Origin: Mycosarcoma maydis
Lineage: Eukaryota; Basidiomycota; Ustilaginomycetes; Ustilaginales
Assembly: GCF_000328475.2 (NCBI RefSeq)
Contig: NC_026488.1
Span: 248,001 to 312,000, forward strand
DNA: 64,000 bases
Direction of reading: 5' to 3'
Below are positions 6,895 to 60,692 of this stretch, one piece after another (position 1 is the first letter of the stretch; each line of letters starts with the position of its first letter). Under the pieces are notes generated by a model. It was not told the DNA's origin. It was given only the letters and a program-made list of their open reading frames with translations, and searched no databases. The translations under genes were made by a program, and so were the position numbers.

Positions 6895-8670
6895 TCAAAG
6901 CATGAAGGTTCGCTGGAAACTGTATCGCGAGCGCAGCATTTCGCCCACGCGCTGAAATCTGTACGCTTCTTGTACGGTGGCATCTCTCGGTGCCTGATTG
7001 CTCTTGTTGGGCGCATTTAAGGTGGTGTTGTAAGTCGCATCGGGAGGCAGCACCTCGAATTGAACAGTACCGTTCCCTTCACGGTATGTACTCTTGGCAG
7101 GCCCGATGGTCTTGTACGTGCTATCTCGAGAAATCTTGTCTTTTCCCGTTGCCAGATCTGTGCCTTTAAGCACCCTCTGAAACAGTTCTAGTGATGCCAG
7201 CGGCTGGTAGAATGGAACCTCGTGGCCACTCTCGTAGATACGAACGAATGAGAATTGGCCGCTCTGCTTCACCTGGCCGTGCGTTACGCCATCCGAGGTT
7301 TCAAGGTCTTGATAGCCAGCTTGGTCGAAGCCTTTGTGCTGGACTTGCTCAGCAATGACCTCACCGCCCAACCAATTGCAGTTGTAGTCGGCGTCGCCCG
7401 CATACATGACCACCTGTACTCCCTGGTCCAACAGCGCACGCACATCCTCGATCGTCCCTTCTTCGCGACCGTCATCGCCCGTGTTACTGAAAGCATTCGA
7501 GACGGTCGAAGAGCTCTCGCTAAAGTTCTGGAACGCCCCGATCGCCTTTTGGAAAGCGGGCGTGTTGAGGTAGTCGATGTAGAAGCTGTATGGGAAAGGA
7601 TCCGGCGAAAGCTCCCGAATATCGTACTCGTCTCGATTGGCGTAAAGGTCCAAGATCGACTCGACGTTGTCAGCACAGAAGGTGTCGGCCGTGCTGCAGG
7701 CCTGGTTCGTTCCGGTCGAATAGCAGTCCCGGATCTGATCCAGGCAATTGCCTGGGCCAAACAGATTGTTGTACATCATATGCTCAACCGACGAGTTGAA
7801 GGGTCGGTAGTCGTACGTGTTTCCGGGCGACACGGTAAAGTTGTAGTATGCGGCGTATTGTACCTCAGGTGAGTACCATCCGTTACCGATCATGACCGAT
7901 TTGAGCTTGATCTTGTGCGCCTTCGATGAGCGGTGCGCATTCTGCTCTTCAATGTACTTGTTGAAGATTGGACCGTAGTGACCGCCGTACGACTCGGTCG
8001 CAAAGTGGAAGTCCTCGCGCGAGTATTGCGGGAACGCGCCCATGAAGCCTTGCAGCGTACGGTAGAAATTTTCGGCAGCTGATCCGGTTGTGTTGGCAGT
8101 TAGGGTGACGTTGGCTGCCGAGTAGGTACCACAGGTGCCATATGCTTGCGCATATTCCGGGCACTCGTTGCTAGGAAGCGCCACCAGAGACTCGGTAGAT
8201 GGATCCACGTAACCAGGCACCAACTTGGTGTAAGAAAACCCCGTAGTCGCCGGCTGATCGATAAATATCATGTTGCTGGCATTATTCCAAGCGTAGGGGT
8301 TATTGACGACGGTGCCATTTGAGTCCACCGAGCATGGACCAAGCTCTTGGAACAAACCGATCATGGACGACGATCCCGGTCCTCCGTTGATCCAGACAGT
8401 TAAAGGAGCATTTTCAGGCTTCTCGTTGCGCGCTTCGAAGAACCAGAAGAAGATGTGCTCGTCCTCCTGCACGTCGACATAGCCAGTGAAACTCTTAACG
8501 TTGGGATTGGTTTCGCAGGTGCCTGTTGGGACTTGTTTGTATCGCACGGGGATGTCAAGGTAGCCCTTGGTCGTCTTGAGATCTGTGGGAGGCTGTACGA
8601 ATTGGGCAGAGATCGTGTTGAAGAGTGAGAGTGCTGCGATCACCACAGCGAGCATGTACTGCGCCGCCAT
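6895..8670 (-). CDS. Secreted serine carboxypeptidase, S10 family
   Basis: This is an intronless 591-residue protein. Residues 1-22 form a signal peptide (hydrophobic core LAVVIAALSLF, probable cleavage after SA). The S10 fold is shown by WINGGPGSSSM at residues 93-103, which forms the oxyanion region. The catalytic triad is Ser227 in TESYGGHYGP, Asp428 in GDADYNCNWLGGE and His483 in ESGHEVPFY. Several N-glycosylation sequons (for example NVT, NTT, NFS) and paired cysteines agree with secretion or vacuolar targeting. The family removes C-terminal residues from peptides at acidic pH. There is no obvious GPI or membrane anchor at the C-terminus. Its promoter faces the repeat island that begins at about 8.7 kb. 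Confidence 0.93.
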   Translation of the reverse strand: MAAQYMLAVVIAALSLFNTISAQFVQPPTDLKTTKGYLDIPVRYKQVPTGTCETNPNVKSFTGYVDVQEDEHIFFWFFEARNEKPENAPLTVWINGGPGSSSMIGLFQELGPCSVDSNGTVVNNPYAWNNASNMIFIDQPATTGFSYTKLVPGYVDPSTESLVALPSNECPEYAQAYGTCGTYSAANVTLTANTTGSAAENFYRTLQGFMGAFPQYSREDFHFATESYGGHYGPIFNKYIEEQNAHRSSKAHKIKLKSVMIGNGWYSPEVQYAAYYNFTVSPGNTYDYRPFNSSVEHMMYNNLFGPGNCLDQIRDCYSTGTNQACSTADTFCADNVESILDLYANRDEYDIRELSPDPFPYSFYIDYLNTPAFQKAIGAFQNFSESSSTVSNAFSNTGDDGREEGTIEDVRALLDQGVQVVMYAGDADYNCNWLGGEVIAEQVQHKGFDQAGYQDLETSDGVTHGQVKQSGQFSFVRIYESGHEVPFYQPLASLELFQRVLKGTDLATGKDKISRDSTYKTIGPAKSTYREGNGTVQFEVLPPDATYNTTLNAPNKSNQAPRDATVQEAYRFQRVGEMLRSRYSFQRTFML

Positions 8671-10515: not shown

Positions 10516-11040
10516 TGTTGAAAGGAAGGAAGATATCATGTGTTACATGTACTGTACACTCACGAGTCACGAGTGCATACATTACATGCGCTAGATGAGT
10601 GAAGAAAGCCTCGGAGAATGCCGCAGTCACAGGCTCTCGGTTTGGGATCCGGTAACGCTCGTATTTCACGATTCACGTGGTTCGTGGTTCGTGGTTCGTG
10701 CTGGGTTTTCGTGATCCACATGTTCATGGATAGCGCGTAACTTAACTCATAACTCCATGCTGGAATCACAAATGATCTTCGTCGTGAGCGTGAGCGCGTA
10801 ACGCACTGGCGCGTTACGCAGCTTACGCCAAATCGTGACTAACCACAATTCTGTGATTGATGGTGGCAATCACAAATCGAAAATTTTTACGAGCGCTACA
10901 TGCACGTGTTGTAAATAGGTGCATTTAATCACGAATCACAAATCACGAATGGGACGTTGTCGTGAGTCGTGAATCACGTCGTGAAAAAAGGAAAAAGTCG
11001 ACCTAGGAACCACCCTGGCAACCACCTATTGAGATTTTGG

Positions 11041-11333
11041 TGAATCTTTAGCGGGCGCTAGATGATCGAAGCCTCCCTTTCCTTTAGAGAGGCGAGTTGG
11101 GACTGAGTAGTGGTCGAGAATCGTGAATGGTTTGGGATGTATTTGGATAGTTTGTTTTGAACAAGGGACTAACTACAAAGTGTGAGCGAAATCCCTCTGT
11201 ATTCATGTACATGAGTTGACTGGAGTCACGAGTATCCTACATGAGCTTCTCCCTATACGTCGCCTCCTCATACAGCTGACTAGCCGTGGCCACTGGCCAG
11301 ATGCATGAGTCTGTTCTCCCTCAGGTTCTTCCA
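11041..11333. mobile_element. Solo LTR copy A with 5-bp target duplication TTTGG
   Basis: This 293-bp element starts TGAATC and ends CTTCCA, so it has the TG...CA ends of an LTR. It is flanked on both sides by TTTGG (11036-11040 and 11334-11338), a perfect 5-bp target duplication. It is about 85 percent similar by eye to copies at 12725-13013 and 13660-13964. Relative to copy B it has two extra 7-bp segments: CGTGAAT at 11122-11128 and CACGAGT at 11227-11233. There is no internal retroelement region next to it, so it is a solo LTR. Confidence 0.8.
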
Positions 11334-11560
11334 TTTGGTGCGAGTCTGTAACCAACGGCATATTCCCACAGTCGTGAGTCGTCCAGCGACTCGTGACTTG
11401 TGTGAATCTACTCTGGGCTTCTCGCTACCAGCGCTATGTTGTGCACTGGGGAACTCTGGCGAGCTACTATACTTGCGGGCGTACTCCGGTCGTACTGCGG
11501 GTGCATTGAGCGCGTATAGCGCGCGTACTGAGACACCTACTCGTTCCCGTCCGGTCACTC
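11334..11560. repeat. LTR-flanking repeat, copy A
   Basis: The sequence just right of LTR copy A (TGCGAGTCTGTAACCAACGG onward, to about 11445) also lies right of LTR copy B at 13019-13115. Similar sequence ending in the CTACTCGTTCCCGTCCGGTC type of block recurs at 13139-13216. Copy A has two heptamers that copy B lacks (11373-11379 and 11392-11398), while copy B has one that A lacks (13026-13032). Confidence 0.6.
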
Positions 11561-11571
11561 GTGTATACCGG

Positions 11572-11659
11572 TTGGGTAACTCGTGACTGCAAGGGTTGCA
11601 TGATTCGTGATTGTGGGCGATCAGACTGAACGCCAATCGTGAATCGCAGATATTCTAAC
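11572..11659 (+). repeat. 88-bp dispersed repeat with three heptamer insertions
   Basis: This copy carries CGTGACT (11582-11588), CGTGATT (11606-11612) and CGTGAAT (11638-11644). The related copies at 13232-13298 (same strand) and 12629-12699 (inverted) lack all three. A shorter copy at 17155-17200 lacks the two it covers. Confidence 0.8.
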
Positions 11660-11756
11660 ACCACCCAGGGTAGCTCCCCCTGAAGAGTCACTCGAGCAAG
11701 GACCCCCGATCTTGCTGGGTGGCTTCCAAGGACGACTTCTTCCTTTTTTACGACGT

Positions 11757-11812
11757 GAGCCTGCTTCTTTATAAAAAGATATACTCAAATCGTAAATTGA
11801 CAACATGATATA
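11757..11812 (+). repeat. Dispersed repeat copy 3 (with CGTAAAT insertion)
   Basis: The sequence matches 10247-10292 through CTTTATAAAAAGATATACTC, then has CAAAT, CGTAAAT (11791-11797) and TGACAACATG. The seven extra bases are a one-base variant of the heptamer. Confidence 0.55.
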
Positions 11813-12059
11813 TGTCTCCGACTGTGTTGACGAAGGAATCACGAGTCACGAATTCACAAAGCGCATACATTCGTGATTCTGTGATTCGTGATTTTCTCCT
11901 GGATTCGTGATTATCGTGTATGTATATGAGCTGACCGTAGTCACGAGTGTCGCGCATGACCTTCTCTCTATACATTCACGATTAGCGCCTCATACATCTC
12001 GTGTCTGACCAGCGTAAACCAGAACTGATCAGGTGTGCGAATCCCTTTCTTTCCGGCTT

Positions 12060-12530
12060 TGTGGGAGTATGCAGCGAAGAAGGAATCGTGAATCACGAAT
12101 CACGAATTTTGACGCTCATATACACAATAAGTTATTCACGGTTCGTGATTAATTACCAATCAGTGAATCGAAAAAAAAATGAATCGTGAATAAAAAAAAT
12201 AAAAAAAGATTGAGATGCCGTGAATGAAGAACAGCGCGGTGCAATCGTCAATCACGAGAATCACATATCGTGAATAATTGTGATTCGTGATTACTCATGA
12301 CTTGAAAAGACATGCATCGTGAATTTAAATCACGTTTCCAATCACGATTCGTAATTCTTGAATCGTGAATTTGTGATTGTGATCTGTGATTCTGGTTTCA
12401 TGTTCTAAGACTTAAGAATCGTAAATCACGAATCGTGAATTCGTGATTTACGATTCACGATTGTTGGTGTCAACTGAGTTATCACTCAAAAACAAAATAA
12501 ATCGTGAATAATCATGAATCGTGAATCTGG
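12060..12530. repeat. Dense inverted and tandem heptamer cluster
   Basis: About 470 bp of very AT-rich DNA is packed with ATTCGTG and CACGAAT units in alternating orientation, with A-tracts at 12170-12210. Adjacent opposite units near 12418-12462 form an almost continuous inverted repeat that could fold into a hairpin. Confidence 0.85.
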
Positions 12531-12628
12531 TCTCGTATACTCGTGACTCGTGACGCACGACTAGTTTCCTTTCATGGATCTCGGATGACTATCCGTGTTC
12601 CTCAGACGTGTCGGCAAGATTCACGATT

Positions 12629-12699
12629 GTTAGAATATCTGCAATTGGCGTTTAGTCTGATCGCCCACAATCATGCAACCCTTGCAGTAACCCAAACGG
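12629..12699 (-). repeat. Inverted copy of the 11572 repeat, no heptamers
   Basis: This is the reverse complement of the repeat at 11572-11659 and 13232-13298, running from GTTAGAATATCTGC to GTAACCCAAACGG. It has none of the three extra heptamers of the 11572 copy. Confidence 0.75.
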
Positions 12700-12724
12700 T
12701 GCACACGAGTATTCAAATTCTTGG

Positions 12725-13013
12725 TGAATCTTTAGCGGGCGCTAGATGATCGAAGTCTCCCTTTCCTTAGAGAGGCGAGTTGGGACTGAGTAATGGTCGA
12801 GAATGGTTTGGAATGTATTTGGATAGTGTGAATTGGACAGTTTGTTTTGGAAGAGGGACAAACTACAAAGTGTGAGCGTTCCCTCTGTATTTACATGAGT
12901 TGACTGGAGTATCCTACATGAGCTTCTCCCTATACGTCAGCTCCTCACACAACTGACCAGCTGTGGCCACAACTGGCCAGATGCGTGAGTCTGTTCTCTT
13001 TCAGGTTCTATCA
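12725..13013. mobile_element. Solo LTR copy B with 5-bp target duplication CTTGG
   Basis: This 289-bp element runs from TGAATCTTTAGC to GGTTCTATCA. CTTGG lies on both sides (12720-12724 and 13014-13018). It has none of the heptamer insertions seen in copies A and C, so it represents the uninterrupted form. The flanking sequence resembles that of copy A, so A and B may descend from one insertion later duplicated with its surroundings. Confidence 0.85.
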
Positions 13014-13138
13014 CTTGGTGCGAGTCGTGAGTCTGTAGCCAACGGCATATTCCCACAGTCGTCCAGCGACTTGTGTGAATTTACCCTGGGCTTCTCGCTA
13101 CCAGCGCTATGTTATGGACCGGGTAAAACTCCGGCGTT

Positions 13139-13216
13139 CTGAGACACCTACTCGTACCCGTCCGGTGACTGAGAGGGTTGCGGACATTCCGCGAGCTTAC
13201 TCGTTCCCATCCGGTC
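13139..13216 (+). repeat. Left arm of 78-bp inverted repeat
   Basis: The arm from CTGAGACACCTACTCGTACC to ATCCGGTC is the near-perfect reverse complement of 13306-13383, with a spacer of about 89 bp that contains the 13232-13298 repeat copy. Confidence 0.85.
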
Positions 13217-13231
13217 ACTCGTGTGTACCGT

Positions 13232-13298
13232 TTGGGTAACTGCAAGGGCTGCATGATTGTGGGCGATCAGACTAAACGCCAATCGCAGATATTCTAAC
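13232..13298 (+). repeat. Copy of the 11572 repeat without heptamers
   Basis: It matches 11572-11659 along its length, minus the three 7-bp insertions, and sits in the loop of the 78-bp inverted repeat. Confidence 0.8.
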
Positions 13299-13305
13299 AA
13301 CGAGA

Positions 13306-13383
13306 GACCGGACGGGAACGAGTAAGCTCGCGGAATGTCCGCAACCCTTTCAGTCACCGGACGGGTACGAGTAGGTGTCTCAG
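13306..13383 (-). repeat. Right arm of 78-bp inverted repeat
   Basis: This is the reverse complement of 13139-13216 with only about two mismatches. Just after it (13397-13436) a fragment of the LTR-flanking repeat (GACTTGTGTGAATCTACTCT) appears again. Confidence 0.85.
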
Positions 13384-13659
13384 GGTGGTTGCCGGGGCGT
13401 GACTTGTGTGAATCTACTCTGGGCTTCTCGCTACCGGCAAAGCCAGCAGCTTGCTGGAGCATCGATTAGAGAGGAGAAGGACGTACTGAAAGCGCAGCGG
13501 ATCTCAAGCATCCGGAGGAGGTCGATAGTGAAGAACCAACGAGATGTTGTAGTCCTTCAATAGCGGAACTGACAAATGCCACCGAGCCCAACTGTCACGA
13601 CTCATGAATGCTAGATCAACTGTGTTCATGATTCGTGTGATTGCAATGCACGATCTTAG

Positions 13660-13964
13660 TGAATCGTGAATCTTTAGCAAGCGCTATATGATCGAAGTCT
13701 CCCTTTCTTTAGAGAGGCGAGTTGGGACTGAGTTGGCCGAGAATGGTTTGGAATGTATGTGCGTTTTGGACGGTCACGAGTGATTTTTGGACGAGGGACT
13801 AACTACAAAGTGTGTGGGTCTATCTGTATTTATCACATGTATCCTACATGAGCTTCTCCCCATACGTCGGCTCCTCATACAACTGACTCACGACTCAAGA
13901 CTAGCTGTGGCCACAACTGGCCAGATGCGTGAGTCTGTTCTCTTTCACGTTTCAGGTTCTATCA
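13660..13964. mobile_element. Solo LTR copy C with several heptamer insertions
   Basis: This is the third copy of the same LTR, starting TGAAT and ending TTCTATCA. It carries four extra segments relative to copy B: CGTGAAT (13665-13671), CACGAGT (13775-13781), a 14-bp double unit CACGACTCAAGACT (13889-13902) and CACGTTT (13946-13952). It also has small deletions of its own. The flanks are CTTAG and CTCAC, so no clean target duplication remains. Confidence 0.75.
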
Positions 13965-14289
13965 CTCACAGACCCACGATTGCAATAGCCGGAAAGAAAG
14001 GAGTTCGCACAACTGATCAGTTCTGGTCACGGCTGGTCAGATGTACGAGGTGCTAATCACGAATCACGAATGTATAGAGATCAGCTCATGGGCGATACTA
14101 CGGTGAGCTCATATACACAAACCAGGAGAAATCATGAATATATGCGCTTTGTAAATTTCCTCGTCAACACAGTTAAAGTTTATATAAAGTATATACATTA
14201 CTAACATTCGTGATTCGTGACTGGCCGATGAGCTATTGAGAGGATGGTCGTCCTCGGAGCCACCCTGGGTGGTGATTCTGCATTGCGAG

Positions 14290-17200: not shown

Positions 17201-17519
17201 TTCAACAGTCACGAGTTTAGTCACAGATTCGTGATTCACGATTCACGGTTCACAAACGACGCACGACAGTCACAGTCACAGTCACGAGTCACAGTCGTGA
17301 GAAAAAAAAGAAGAAAAAAAGGTGAGTCACGAGTCACGAGTTGACGCACGCGACGGTTCTTGGTGTGCATGTTGATACTCGAGAGTTAACAGTCACCAGT
17401 GACACACACACGACATAAGCCGTGAGTTATCGTGCTAAGGTGCCTGAGGAAGTCCTTACCAACTCGTGACTGTGAGTTAGTAAGAGACCCATTACAAGAG
17501 GGTCTTTCTGCAGCAGCCG

Positions 17520-33998: not shown

Positions 33999-34056
33999 AT
34001 TCGTGATTCGTGATTCGTGATTCGTGATTCGTGATTCGTGATTCGTGATTCGTGAT
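33999..34056 (+). repeat. Longest perfect heptamer array, (ATTCGTG)8
   Basis: About eight head-to-tail ATTCGTG units lie between the orphan gene and OST4. It is the cleanest tandem array in the window. Confidence 0.95.
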
Positions 34057-34305
34057 TTGATTCAGGGTCCAAAGCTAGCTTTTCTGCAGCTTCACGGCCG
34101 AAAAGAAACCCGTGACTGGCGAAATTTCCACGTTACGCACACGTAAGTCACGAGTAGCAGCCGGAGCAGCCGCACTCAGCACTGGCCATGCACATCCTGT
34201 CACGTATGCTGGACAACGTATTCTTCCAAACGGCTTTGGCTCGCAACCCATCTCATACCCTTCCTGCGTCCTTGACGAGACGGTGCGACGATAGCTTGTG
34301 CAAGC

Positions 34306-40605: not shown

Positions 40606-40806
40606 GCCTAAAAGGAGCGTGTTGTTCAACTTGACAGTGATGGTGGGAACGAAAGCCTTGACAGAGAAACCATGCGAGCTTTCAGACGATGATCGTCGTC
40701 CGAATGACTTGATCGGCTCAACGGCAGAATGCGACGTGACCACCGAGAAGAGCGCGAACAAGTCACAGTGACACGGAGCGTGTGCACTCACCACTCACCA
40801 CTCACC

Positions 40807-40868
40807 TGTGAGACTGTGTGACTGTGTGACTGTGTGACTGTGTGACTGTGTGACTGTGACTGTAACTG
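40807..40868 (+). repeat. TGTGTGAC tandem repeat
   Basis: About six units of the 8-mer ACTGTGTG lie head to tail, ending in GACTGTAACTG. Confidence 0.85.
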
Positions 40869-42062: not shown

Positions 42063-42105
42063 AACCAAATCACGAATCACGAATCACGAATCACGAATCA
42101 CGAAT
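42063..42105 (+). repeat. Tandem heptamer array
   Basis: About five consecutive AATCACG units in one orientation, with inverted units at 42129-42155. Confidence 0.9.
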
Positions 42106-60621: not shown

Positions 60622-60654
60622 GAAGGTTGTTGGGTAGACAGCTCAGAATACAGC

Positions 60655-60692
60655 GAATCACGAATCACGAATCACGAATCACGAATCACGAG
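60655..60692 (+). repeat. Tandem heptamer array
   Basis: AATCACG units repeat about five times, ending in AATCACGAGTGG. More copies lie at 60870-60925 and 61180-61220. The whole 60622-61525 gap lies between divergent genes and shows no gene. Confidence 0.9.

Follow-up and report, generated by a model that had tools for sequence, protein, structure and literature searches.

The stretch of Mycosarcoma maydis DNA analysed here (64,000 nucleotides, contig NC_026488.1, positions 248,001 to 312,000; C11:248001-312000 in our numbering; hereafter the window) holds many short insertions that obey one rule: ANT, with N any base, becomes ANT-CACG-ANT or ANT-CGTG-ANT. The net gain of 7 bases is a 3-base copy of the target and a 4-base core. 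An earlier note had described such insertions in one island of the window (11041 to 13964), and they are confirmed here as real, genome-wide, and stricter in their rule than first described. We put at roughly 0.5 the probability that cut-and-paste excision left them as footprints, the cut at ANT being staggered by 3 bases. The target, the duplication, the core, its two orientations, the scale, and the location outside long open reading frames (ORFs) were observed directly, as was the gain at most long terminal repeat (LTR) sites of readable polarity. No earlier description for this genus appeared among the papers listed in searches of open-licence literature.

The window had 160 matches to the pattern ANTCACGANT, whereas 100 dinucleotide shuffles gave 2.76 on average and 7 at most, and 142 sites had the same N on both sides. 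The whole genome (19.66 Mb, 27 contigs) was searched with TCACGANT on both strands, which gave 31,122 matches versus 1,572 for the reversed control, approximately one matching word per 630 bases; these are words and not events, and one array scores several times. The two orientations were near-equal (67 and 75 in the window, 15,578 and 15,544 in the genome). Four 10-kb stretches on other chromosomes contained 4, 17, 17, and 11 sites, so the units are not confined to the island. Nineteen long ORFs, hand-picked out of 43, served as the coding proxy; they hold 1,339 of 3,021 ANT words and two of the 142 window sites. Purifying selection suffices to explain this near-absence, since a gain of 7 bp puts a coding sequence out of frame.

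The target was defined in a 104-kb sample (the window and the four 10-kb stretches). Around CACG, N was matched at 97 of 108 isolated sites (11 unmatched) and at 94 sites within arrays (8 unmatched). For the other four-base cores pooled, it was matched at 76 of 210 sites (134 unmatched), a control that, unlike the isolated CACG set, takes in isolated and array sites alike. Of the flank classes around CACG, AnT had 191 matched and 19 unmatched sites and the runner-up AnC 11 and 5; no class besides AnT exceeded 11 matched, and TnA had 1 and 1. The positions beyond ANT resembled the background of window ANT words (72 isolated sites), which rules out a longer palindromic target such as GANTC. The middle base was A or T in 112 of the 142 window sites, and the four ANT words were near-equal in non-coding DNA (394 to 459 each). 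The target is thus ANT, with A or T preferred in the middle (AWT), the duplication is 3 bases, and the core is 4.

The earlier note had read the rule as NT to NT-CACGA-NT, with a core that is always CACGA and a cut staggered by two bases. NT + CACGA and ANT + CACG are the same 7 bases with the parse shifted by one. The copying of the target stands, but the copy is three bases long, which implies a three-base stagger, and the A belongs to the target, leaving CACG/CGTG as the core. A constant CACGA also fails at three places in the island: TTT-CACG-TTT at 13943-13952 is without the A, GGT-CACGAGT at 13772-13781 is mismatched on the left, and the second unit at the 13886 site has the core CAAG.

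The island contains three LTR copies (W1 to W3). Its features are given below, with the strand where one was assigned and, in brackets, the numbers of copies filled and empty at the site; L numbers denote other loci.

11037..11665, + strand: LTR copy W1, containing seven ANT-CGTG/CACG-ANT insertions.
11119..11128: AAT-CGTG-AAT, also in L041 (filled 2, empty 17).
11224..11233: AGT-CACG-AGT, also in L040 (filled 2, empty 37).
11370..11379: AGT-CGTG-AGT, also in L040 (filled 2, empty 40).
11389..11398: ACT-CGTG-ACT, also in L040; L047 has ACT-CATG-ACT there (filled 2, empty 37).
11579..11588: ACT-CGTG-ACT in the distal LTR (filled 1, empty 16; shifted gap placement).
11603..11612: ATT-CGTG-ATT (filled 1, empty 27).
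11635..11644: AAT-CGTG-AAT (filled 1, empty 11; second placement of the event, empty 16).
11837..12628: dense cluster of ANT-CACG/CGTG-ANT units in both orientations, between LTR copies.
12715..13303, + strand: LTR copy W2, ~590 bp, mostly empty at insertion sites.
13023..13032: AGT-CGTG-AGT common to 8 copies (filled 8, empty 32).
13656..13966, + strand: LTR copy W3, partial.
13662..13671: AAT-CGTG-AAT at the start of W3, common with L069; polarity not settled.
13772..13781: GGT-CACG-AGT, an imperfect unit; L070 has an AGT-CACG-AGT array here and L069 a related array.
13886..13902: ACT-CACG-ACT-CAAG-ACT, a double 14-bp insertion (filled 1, empty 42); L069 (CAAG) and L070 (CACG) have a single unit here.
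13943..13952: TTT-CACG-TTT, an exception to the ANT target (filled 3, empty 8).

All nine insertions first quoted from the island are present, each at its place. When the window LTR copies were aligned pairwise (first 305-380 bases of each copy), 7-bp and 14-bp gaps were seen among other gaps. The rule does not cover every indel: exceptions are 1-4-base gaps, a 20-bp gap, and, in the middle copy, a 14-bp extra segment. The repeat at 11572, taken at first for a separate family, belongs to the same LTR and forms its distal part; this LTR measures ~590 bp in the middle copy (12715-13303).

Fifty-three copies of the LTR that holds the quoted insertions were compared (1,180 pairs kept; indels ≥3 bp with clean flanks). 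An indel key was scored as a derived insertion when filled in ≤10 copies and empty in ≥8, and as a derived deletion when empty in ≤4 and filled in ≥8. The 32 derived-insertion keys measured 5 (two keys), 7 (22), 8 (two), 14 (three, two of which are one segment), 23, 33, and 50 bp. At the 7-bp keys, between 1 and 8 copies were filled and between 8 and 42 empty, so the segments are mostly gains and not remnants. One of these keys, GAATCGC, is the 11635 event placed a second time, which leaves 21 after a hand recount. Fourteen of these are exactly ANT-CACG-ANT or ANT-CGTG-ANT, and five more duplicate ANT around a different core (CGTA, GAGT, CAAG, CATG, CGCG), giving 19 of 21 with the duplication. 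The flanks at the gain sites hold one ANT and no prior unit, except for GTGAATC (L010, L022) and ACTGAGT (L019), where copies match over 7-8 bases. Three LTR positions are each listed under two 7-bp keys. At one of them, apparently a single ATT target, the core is CACG in L018 and CGTG in L016, suggesting two separate hits in opposite orientation; each of the other two may equally well be a single old event whose core has since changed. Two of the window copies differ by 21 substitutions in 332 aligned columns and by five rule-obeying 7-bp segments, a high rate for the latter.

Cores were counted in a pooled sample of 348 kb including overlaps (~187 kb distinct), in which the retroelement copies cannot be taken as independent. 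Palindromic cores score on both strands, and their numbers were halved (CATG from 250/32 to 125/16, CACGTG from 6/0 to 3/0, CGCG from 18/4 to 9/2). The matched/unmatched numbers were 604/51 for CACG, 125/16 for CATG, and 58/15 for CACA. Among longer cores, they were 21/1 for CACAG, the most over-matched five-base core, 8/1 for CACTG, 3/0 for CACGTG, and 2/0 for CACATG; three-base cores were at most weakly raised (CAC 28/42, CAG 16/10). Euchromatin gave CACG 186/19, CACA 23/8, CACC 9/0, and CATG 7/3, and, with five bases, CACAG 7/1, CACAC 5/1, CACTG 3/0, and CGCAG 3/0. At 11 of the 21 CACAG sites, the base preceding the left ANT is not G, so at these the copy is 3 bases and the core 5, and a 4-base copy is excluded. 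The residue thus varies in length (CACAG, CACTG) while the duplication stays at three.

In the loci other than the window and L079-L082, most of them retroelement regions, the ratio of CATG to CACG was 123:452 (halved) versus 7:186 in euchromatin, and that of CACA to CACG was not raised there (38:452 versus 23:186). The CATG excess could be due to strand- or context-biased CpG decay or to copies of shared ancestry. A heteroduplex model, in which self-pairing CACG overhangs yield CACG, CGTG, CATG, and CGCG, was also considered. It predicts CGCG to be about as frequent as CATG, and the retroelement loci speak against it (6 versus 123, halved); the euchromatic numbers (3 versus 7) are too few to judge it.

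A constant 3-base duplication around a variable residue suggests excision and rejoining. A transposase or transposase-like nuclease would cut ANT with a 3-base stagger, and the element would then sit between two ANT copies. Upon its later excision and the rejoining of the ends, ANT, a few element-end bases, and ANT would remain. The commonest residue would be four bases, CAC of one end and G of the other or the mirror image CGTG, with a net gain of 7. One ANT would become two with each footprint, so repeated hits would build arrays of mixed orientation, some of which ordinary slippage would probably then lengthen. The core would derive from element ends of the form CACA...TGTG: CACG, CATG, CACA, CACAG, CACTG, and CACGTG read like abutted parts (≤4 bases each) of CACA and TGTG ends. 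The element or its enzyme would exist or have existed. Three marks of cut-and-paste footprints are present: a target duplication of fixed length (3 bp of ANT, 97 of 108 isolated sites matched), segments gained at an empty target (22 of the 32 derived keys being 7 bp), and a residue whose length changes around a constant duplication (CACAG 21/1, CACTG 8/1).

Several points weigh against excision footprints. Approximately 30,000 scars would need equally many excisions, and one dominant 3+1 junction is unusual for footprints. CACA ends do not predict some over-matched cores, namely CACC (9/0), CACAC (5/1), and CGCAG (3/0) in euchromatin and TACG (26/6), CATA (20/3), and CAAT (21/4) in the pooled sample. 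CATG and CACA could be CpG decay products of CACG, and CACA was picked as the end sequence after the data had been inspected. Three 7-bp LTR gains are off the rule: TTT-CACG-TTT, TGTGCGT, which fits nothing, and ACT-GAGT, which looks like an ordinary tandem copy. In L070, an 8-bp gain (GACTCACA, before GACT at an ACT; filled in 1 copy, empty in 42) can be read as ACT-CACAG-ACT or as GACT-CACA-GACT.

Searches for a donor count on the same side. The ~187 kb of distinct sequence examined, out of the 19.66-Mb genome, held no element that combines CAC...GTG-type ends with a duplicated ANT, and no sequence recurred after ANT-CAC in the DNA searched. CAC...GTG cores of 16-60 bases were not in excess (6 matched, 9 unmatched), and a noisy list of differences between retroelement copies, scanned by eye, held no clear insert. 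Paired ANT-flanked inverted ends of 15-1200 bases included none with CAC ends in the window, L079-L082, L001, and L005. A low-copy donor is easily missed, because <1% of the genome was examined. The genome has four DDE_3 and three DDE_Tnp_4 transposase-like places, among them a single-copy DDE_3 gene at C10:466,924-467,346; at three and two of these, respectively, the inverted-repeat ends were of another kind or none were visible, and CAC ends with ANT were not seen. Transposase_21 and Plavaka had 0 matches in the genome, the control genomes being silent too, so their absence is not shown.

L083:1360-2445 (C10, minus strand) is an open DDE_3 transposase-like frame of 362 amino acids with a helix-turn-helix (HTH) domain. 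At the DNA level, its sole matches were itself and one 73% fragment on C1; it is a candidate domesticated gene. L214:710-2425 (C2) is a DDE_Tnp_4 frame flanked by perfect inverted repeats of 12 bases (GAGGTTTTGGTC) and may be a Harbinger-type element.

The main rival is direct micro-insertion, which we regard as possible, if unlikely. Here, a nuclease would make a 3-base staggered cut at ANT, a CACG cap would be added, and fill-in would duplicate ANT, all with no larger element; the cap could be copied from a short template built into a polymerase or reverse transcriptase, or be a short oligonucleotide joined on. In its favour are the single dominant core, the lack of a donor element in the DNA examined, the very high word count (31,122), and, between two LTR copies, five 7-bp differences that obey the rule for 21 substitutions. 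The 5- and 6-base cores, which keep the 3-base duplication, speak against it, and from a fixed template a variable core is less expected than from excision and rejoining. A polymerase with a fixed short template, raised as a possibility in the earlier note, is not favoured for this reason: the duplication stays at three, but cores of several lengths and sequences occur. To our knowledge, no enzyme or template adds such a cap, no search having been aimed at one.

Slippage in a heptamer microsatellite, the isolated sites being what is left of decayed arrays, is improbable as the origin. It would account for the pure arrays of the window, which reach 8.4 units:

33999..34057, - strand: (ATTCGTG) x 8.4, the longest pure array of the window.
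42068..42105, + strand: (AATCACG) x 5.4, a pure array.
60654..60691, + strand: (CGAATCA) x 5.4, a pure array.

It also suits the 34 of 49 same-N neighbouring unit pairs that share their orientation and the LTR gain GTGAATC (L010, L022), which duplicates 7 bases already there, and it is a hypothesis for bacterial heptamer repeats cited in PMC4692102. The remaining 15 of the 49 pairs are flipped, and slippage cannot flip a unit. The filled/empty pairs are single 7-bp gains whose flanks hold one ANT and no earlier unit, and N tracks the local target (97 of 108 isolated sites). Slippage is thus contradicted as the seed of most sites; the flipped neighbours and the single gains at unit-free ANT bear out the earlier view that slippage alone cannot seed them. 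Because most pairs are co-oriented and pure arrays reach 8.4 units, it probably remains a part of later array growth.

Two further arrays were seen in the window. An 8-base array at 40806-40858 ((CTGTGTGA) x 6.6, 97% matches) is not of the ANT + 4 kind. A six-base array (ACAGTC) at 17266-17296 adjoins AGT-CACG-AGT units and can be read as AGT-CAC-AGT, with a shorter core on the same ANT target. The window also encodes, at 6898-8670 on the minus strand, a protein that shares 84% identity with its homologue in Sporisorium reilianum, followed by those of other smut fungi.

It is very improbable that the 7-bp segments are ancestral and that deletion across the paired ANT copies is removing them. 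Direct repeats of 3 bases could promote such deletion, and a comparison over a shorter stretch gave one 7-bp loss (GATGCAT and variants, absent in one copy), but its sequence is off the rule. The comparison of the 53 LTR copies contradicts this explanation, the segments being filled in few copies (1-8) and empty in many (8-42), and the six derived deletions measuring 3, 3, 4, 10, 12, and 20 bp, none of them 7. Selection for a protein-binding site (TCACGA), e.g., of a transcription factor, spreading the motif via point mutation is hardly credible and is contradicted as the origin: 140 of the 142 window sites do lie outside long ORFs, but the alignments give insertions and not substitutions, and selection would not copy the flanking N.

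If the insertions are excision footprints, this model fungus holds one of the densest sets of scars of a single activity known to us, and ANT + 4 is a precise, testable signature for the responsible enzyme. Should insertions account for most of the excess words, the genome would have grown by roughly 1%. The filled and empty sites could be used as markers.

Among known systems, Tc1/mariner elements (DDE_3) duplicate a TA target; here, A and T flank a free base. PIF/Harbinger elements (DDE_Tnp_4) make a 3-bp TWA (TNA) duplication, and around CACG TnA had 1 matched and 1 unmatched site versus 191 and 19 for AnT. The ends of the CACTA/CMC superfamily begin with CAC and its duplications are 2-3 bp, and the insertions resemble it in the CAC at the core start and in a duplication of 3. 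ISL2 elements of the IS5 group may use an ANT target. Microsatellites are alike in that some arrays here probably lengthen head to tail; they differ in that seeding here is by insertion with a target copy, and at most LTR gain sites no unit was present before the gain. The excision footprints of cut-and-paste transposons such as mariner and Stowaway (see also PMC4561436) likewise consist of a target duplication and a few end bases, in either orientation and with variable residues. There, the target is TA, whereas here it is ANT with a 3-base copy, the sites number tens of thousands, no donor was found, and one core is dominant.

The bacterial heptamer repeats offer a further parallel. Two papers describe GGGAATC / (GGGANTN)n in Xanthomonas, GGGGA(C/T)T in Nostoc, and GTGATTA in H. 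pylori (PMC4692102), and TAACTGA in Beggiatoaceae, with transposon excision named as a possibility (PMC4679880). They share with the fungal insertions a 7-base, mostly intergenic unit (140 of 142 window sites being outside long ORFs), and each parses, in our hands, as ANT + 4 bases; they differ in being described there as tandem arrays. Four of four is suggestive but not proof, because ANT occurs somewhere in a random heptamer with a chance of ~36% (our arithmetic).

Exact (AATCACG)4 was found in at least 119 stretches of bacterial and archaeal genomes (loci L086-L204), in many bacterial phyla, and 25 of the 80 titled loci among the matches listed were Lysobacterales by name. The pattern ANTCGGGANT (ANT-CGGG-ANT) occurred 236 times in a Lysobacter genome and 197 times in a Luteimonas, versus 10 and 9 for the controls; at isolated Luteimonas sites, N was matched in 21 of 43 among 100 listed of the 197, which is weaker than in the fungus. 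In the 119 bacterial loci, selected for holding an (AATCACG)4 array, AnT at period 7 had a matched/unmatched ratio of 0.67 after the scanned arrays were masked, the highest of all classes, and 0.35-0.48 at other periods. In the 25 Lysobacterales-type loci, picked by title with 39 untitled loci placed in the other group, TnA (34/27, 1.26) exceeds AnT (34/40, 0.85) at period 7. Viral contigs had 7 stretches of (AATCACG)4 versus 2 and 0 for scrambled heptamers, too few to weigh.

The parallel is suggestive. That an undescribed micro-insertion process leaving ANT-(4 bases)-ANT seeds heptamers in distant lineages is doubtful; its cores would be CACG in the smut fungus and CGGG, GGTG, GGGG, AGTG, or GATA in various bacteria. 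If it is true, the excess of bacterial heptamers, long unexplained, would have a common insertional origin rather than one in slippage, and the ANT + 4 signature provides a concrete test of such an insertional start.

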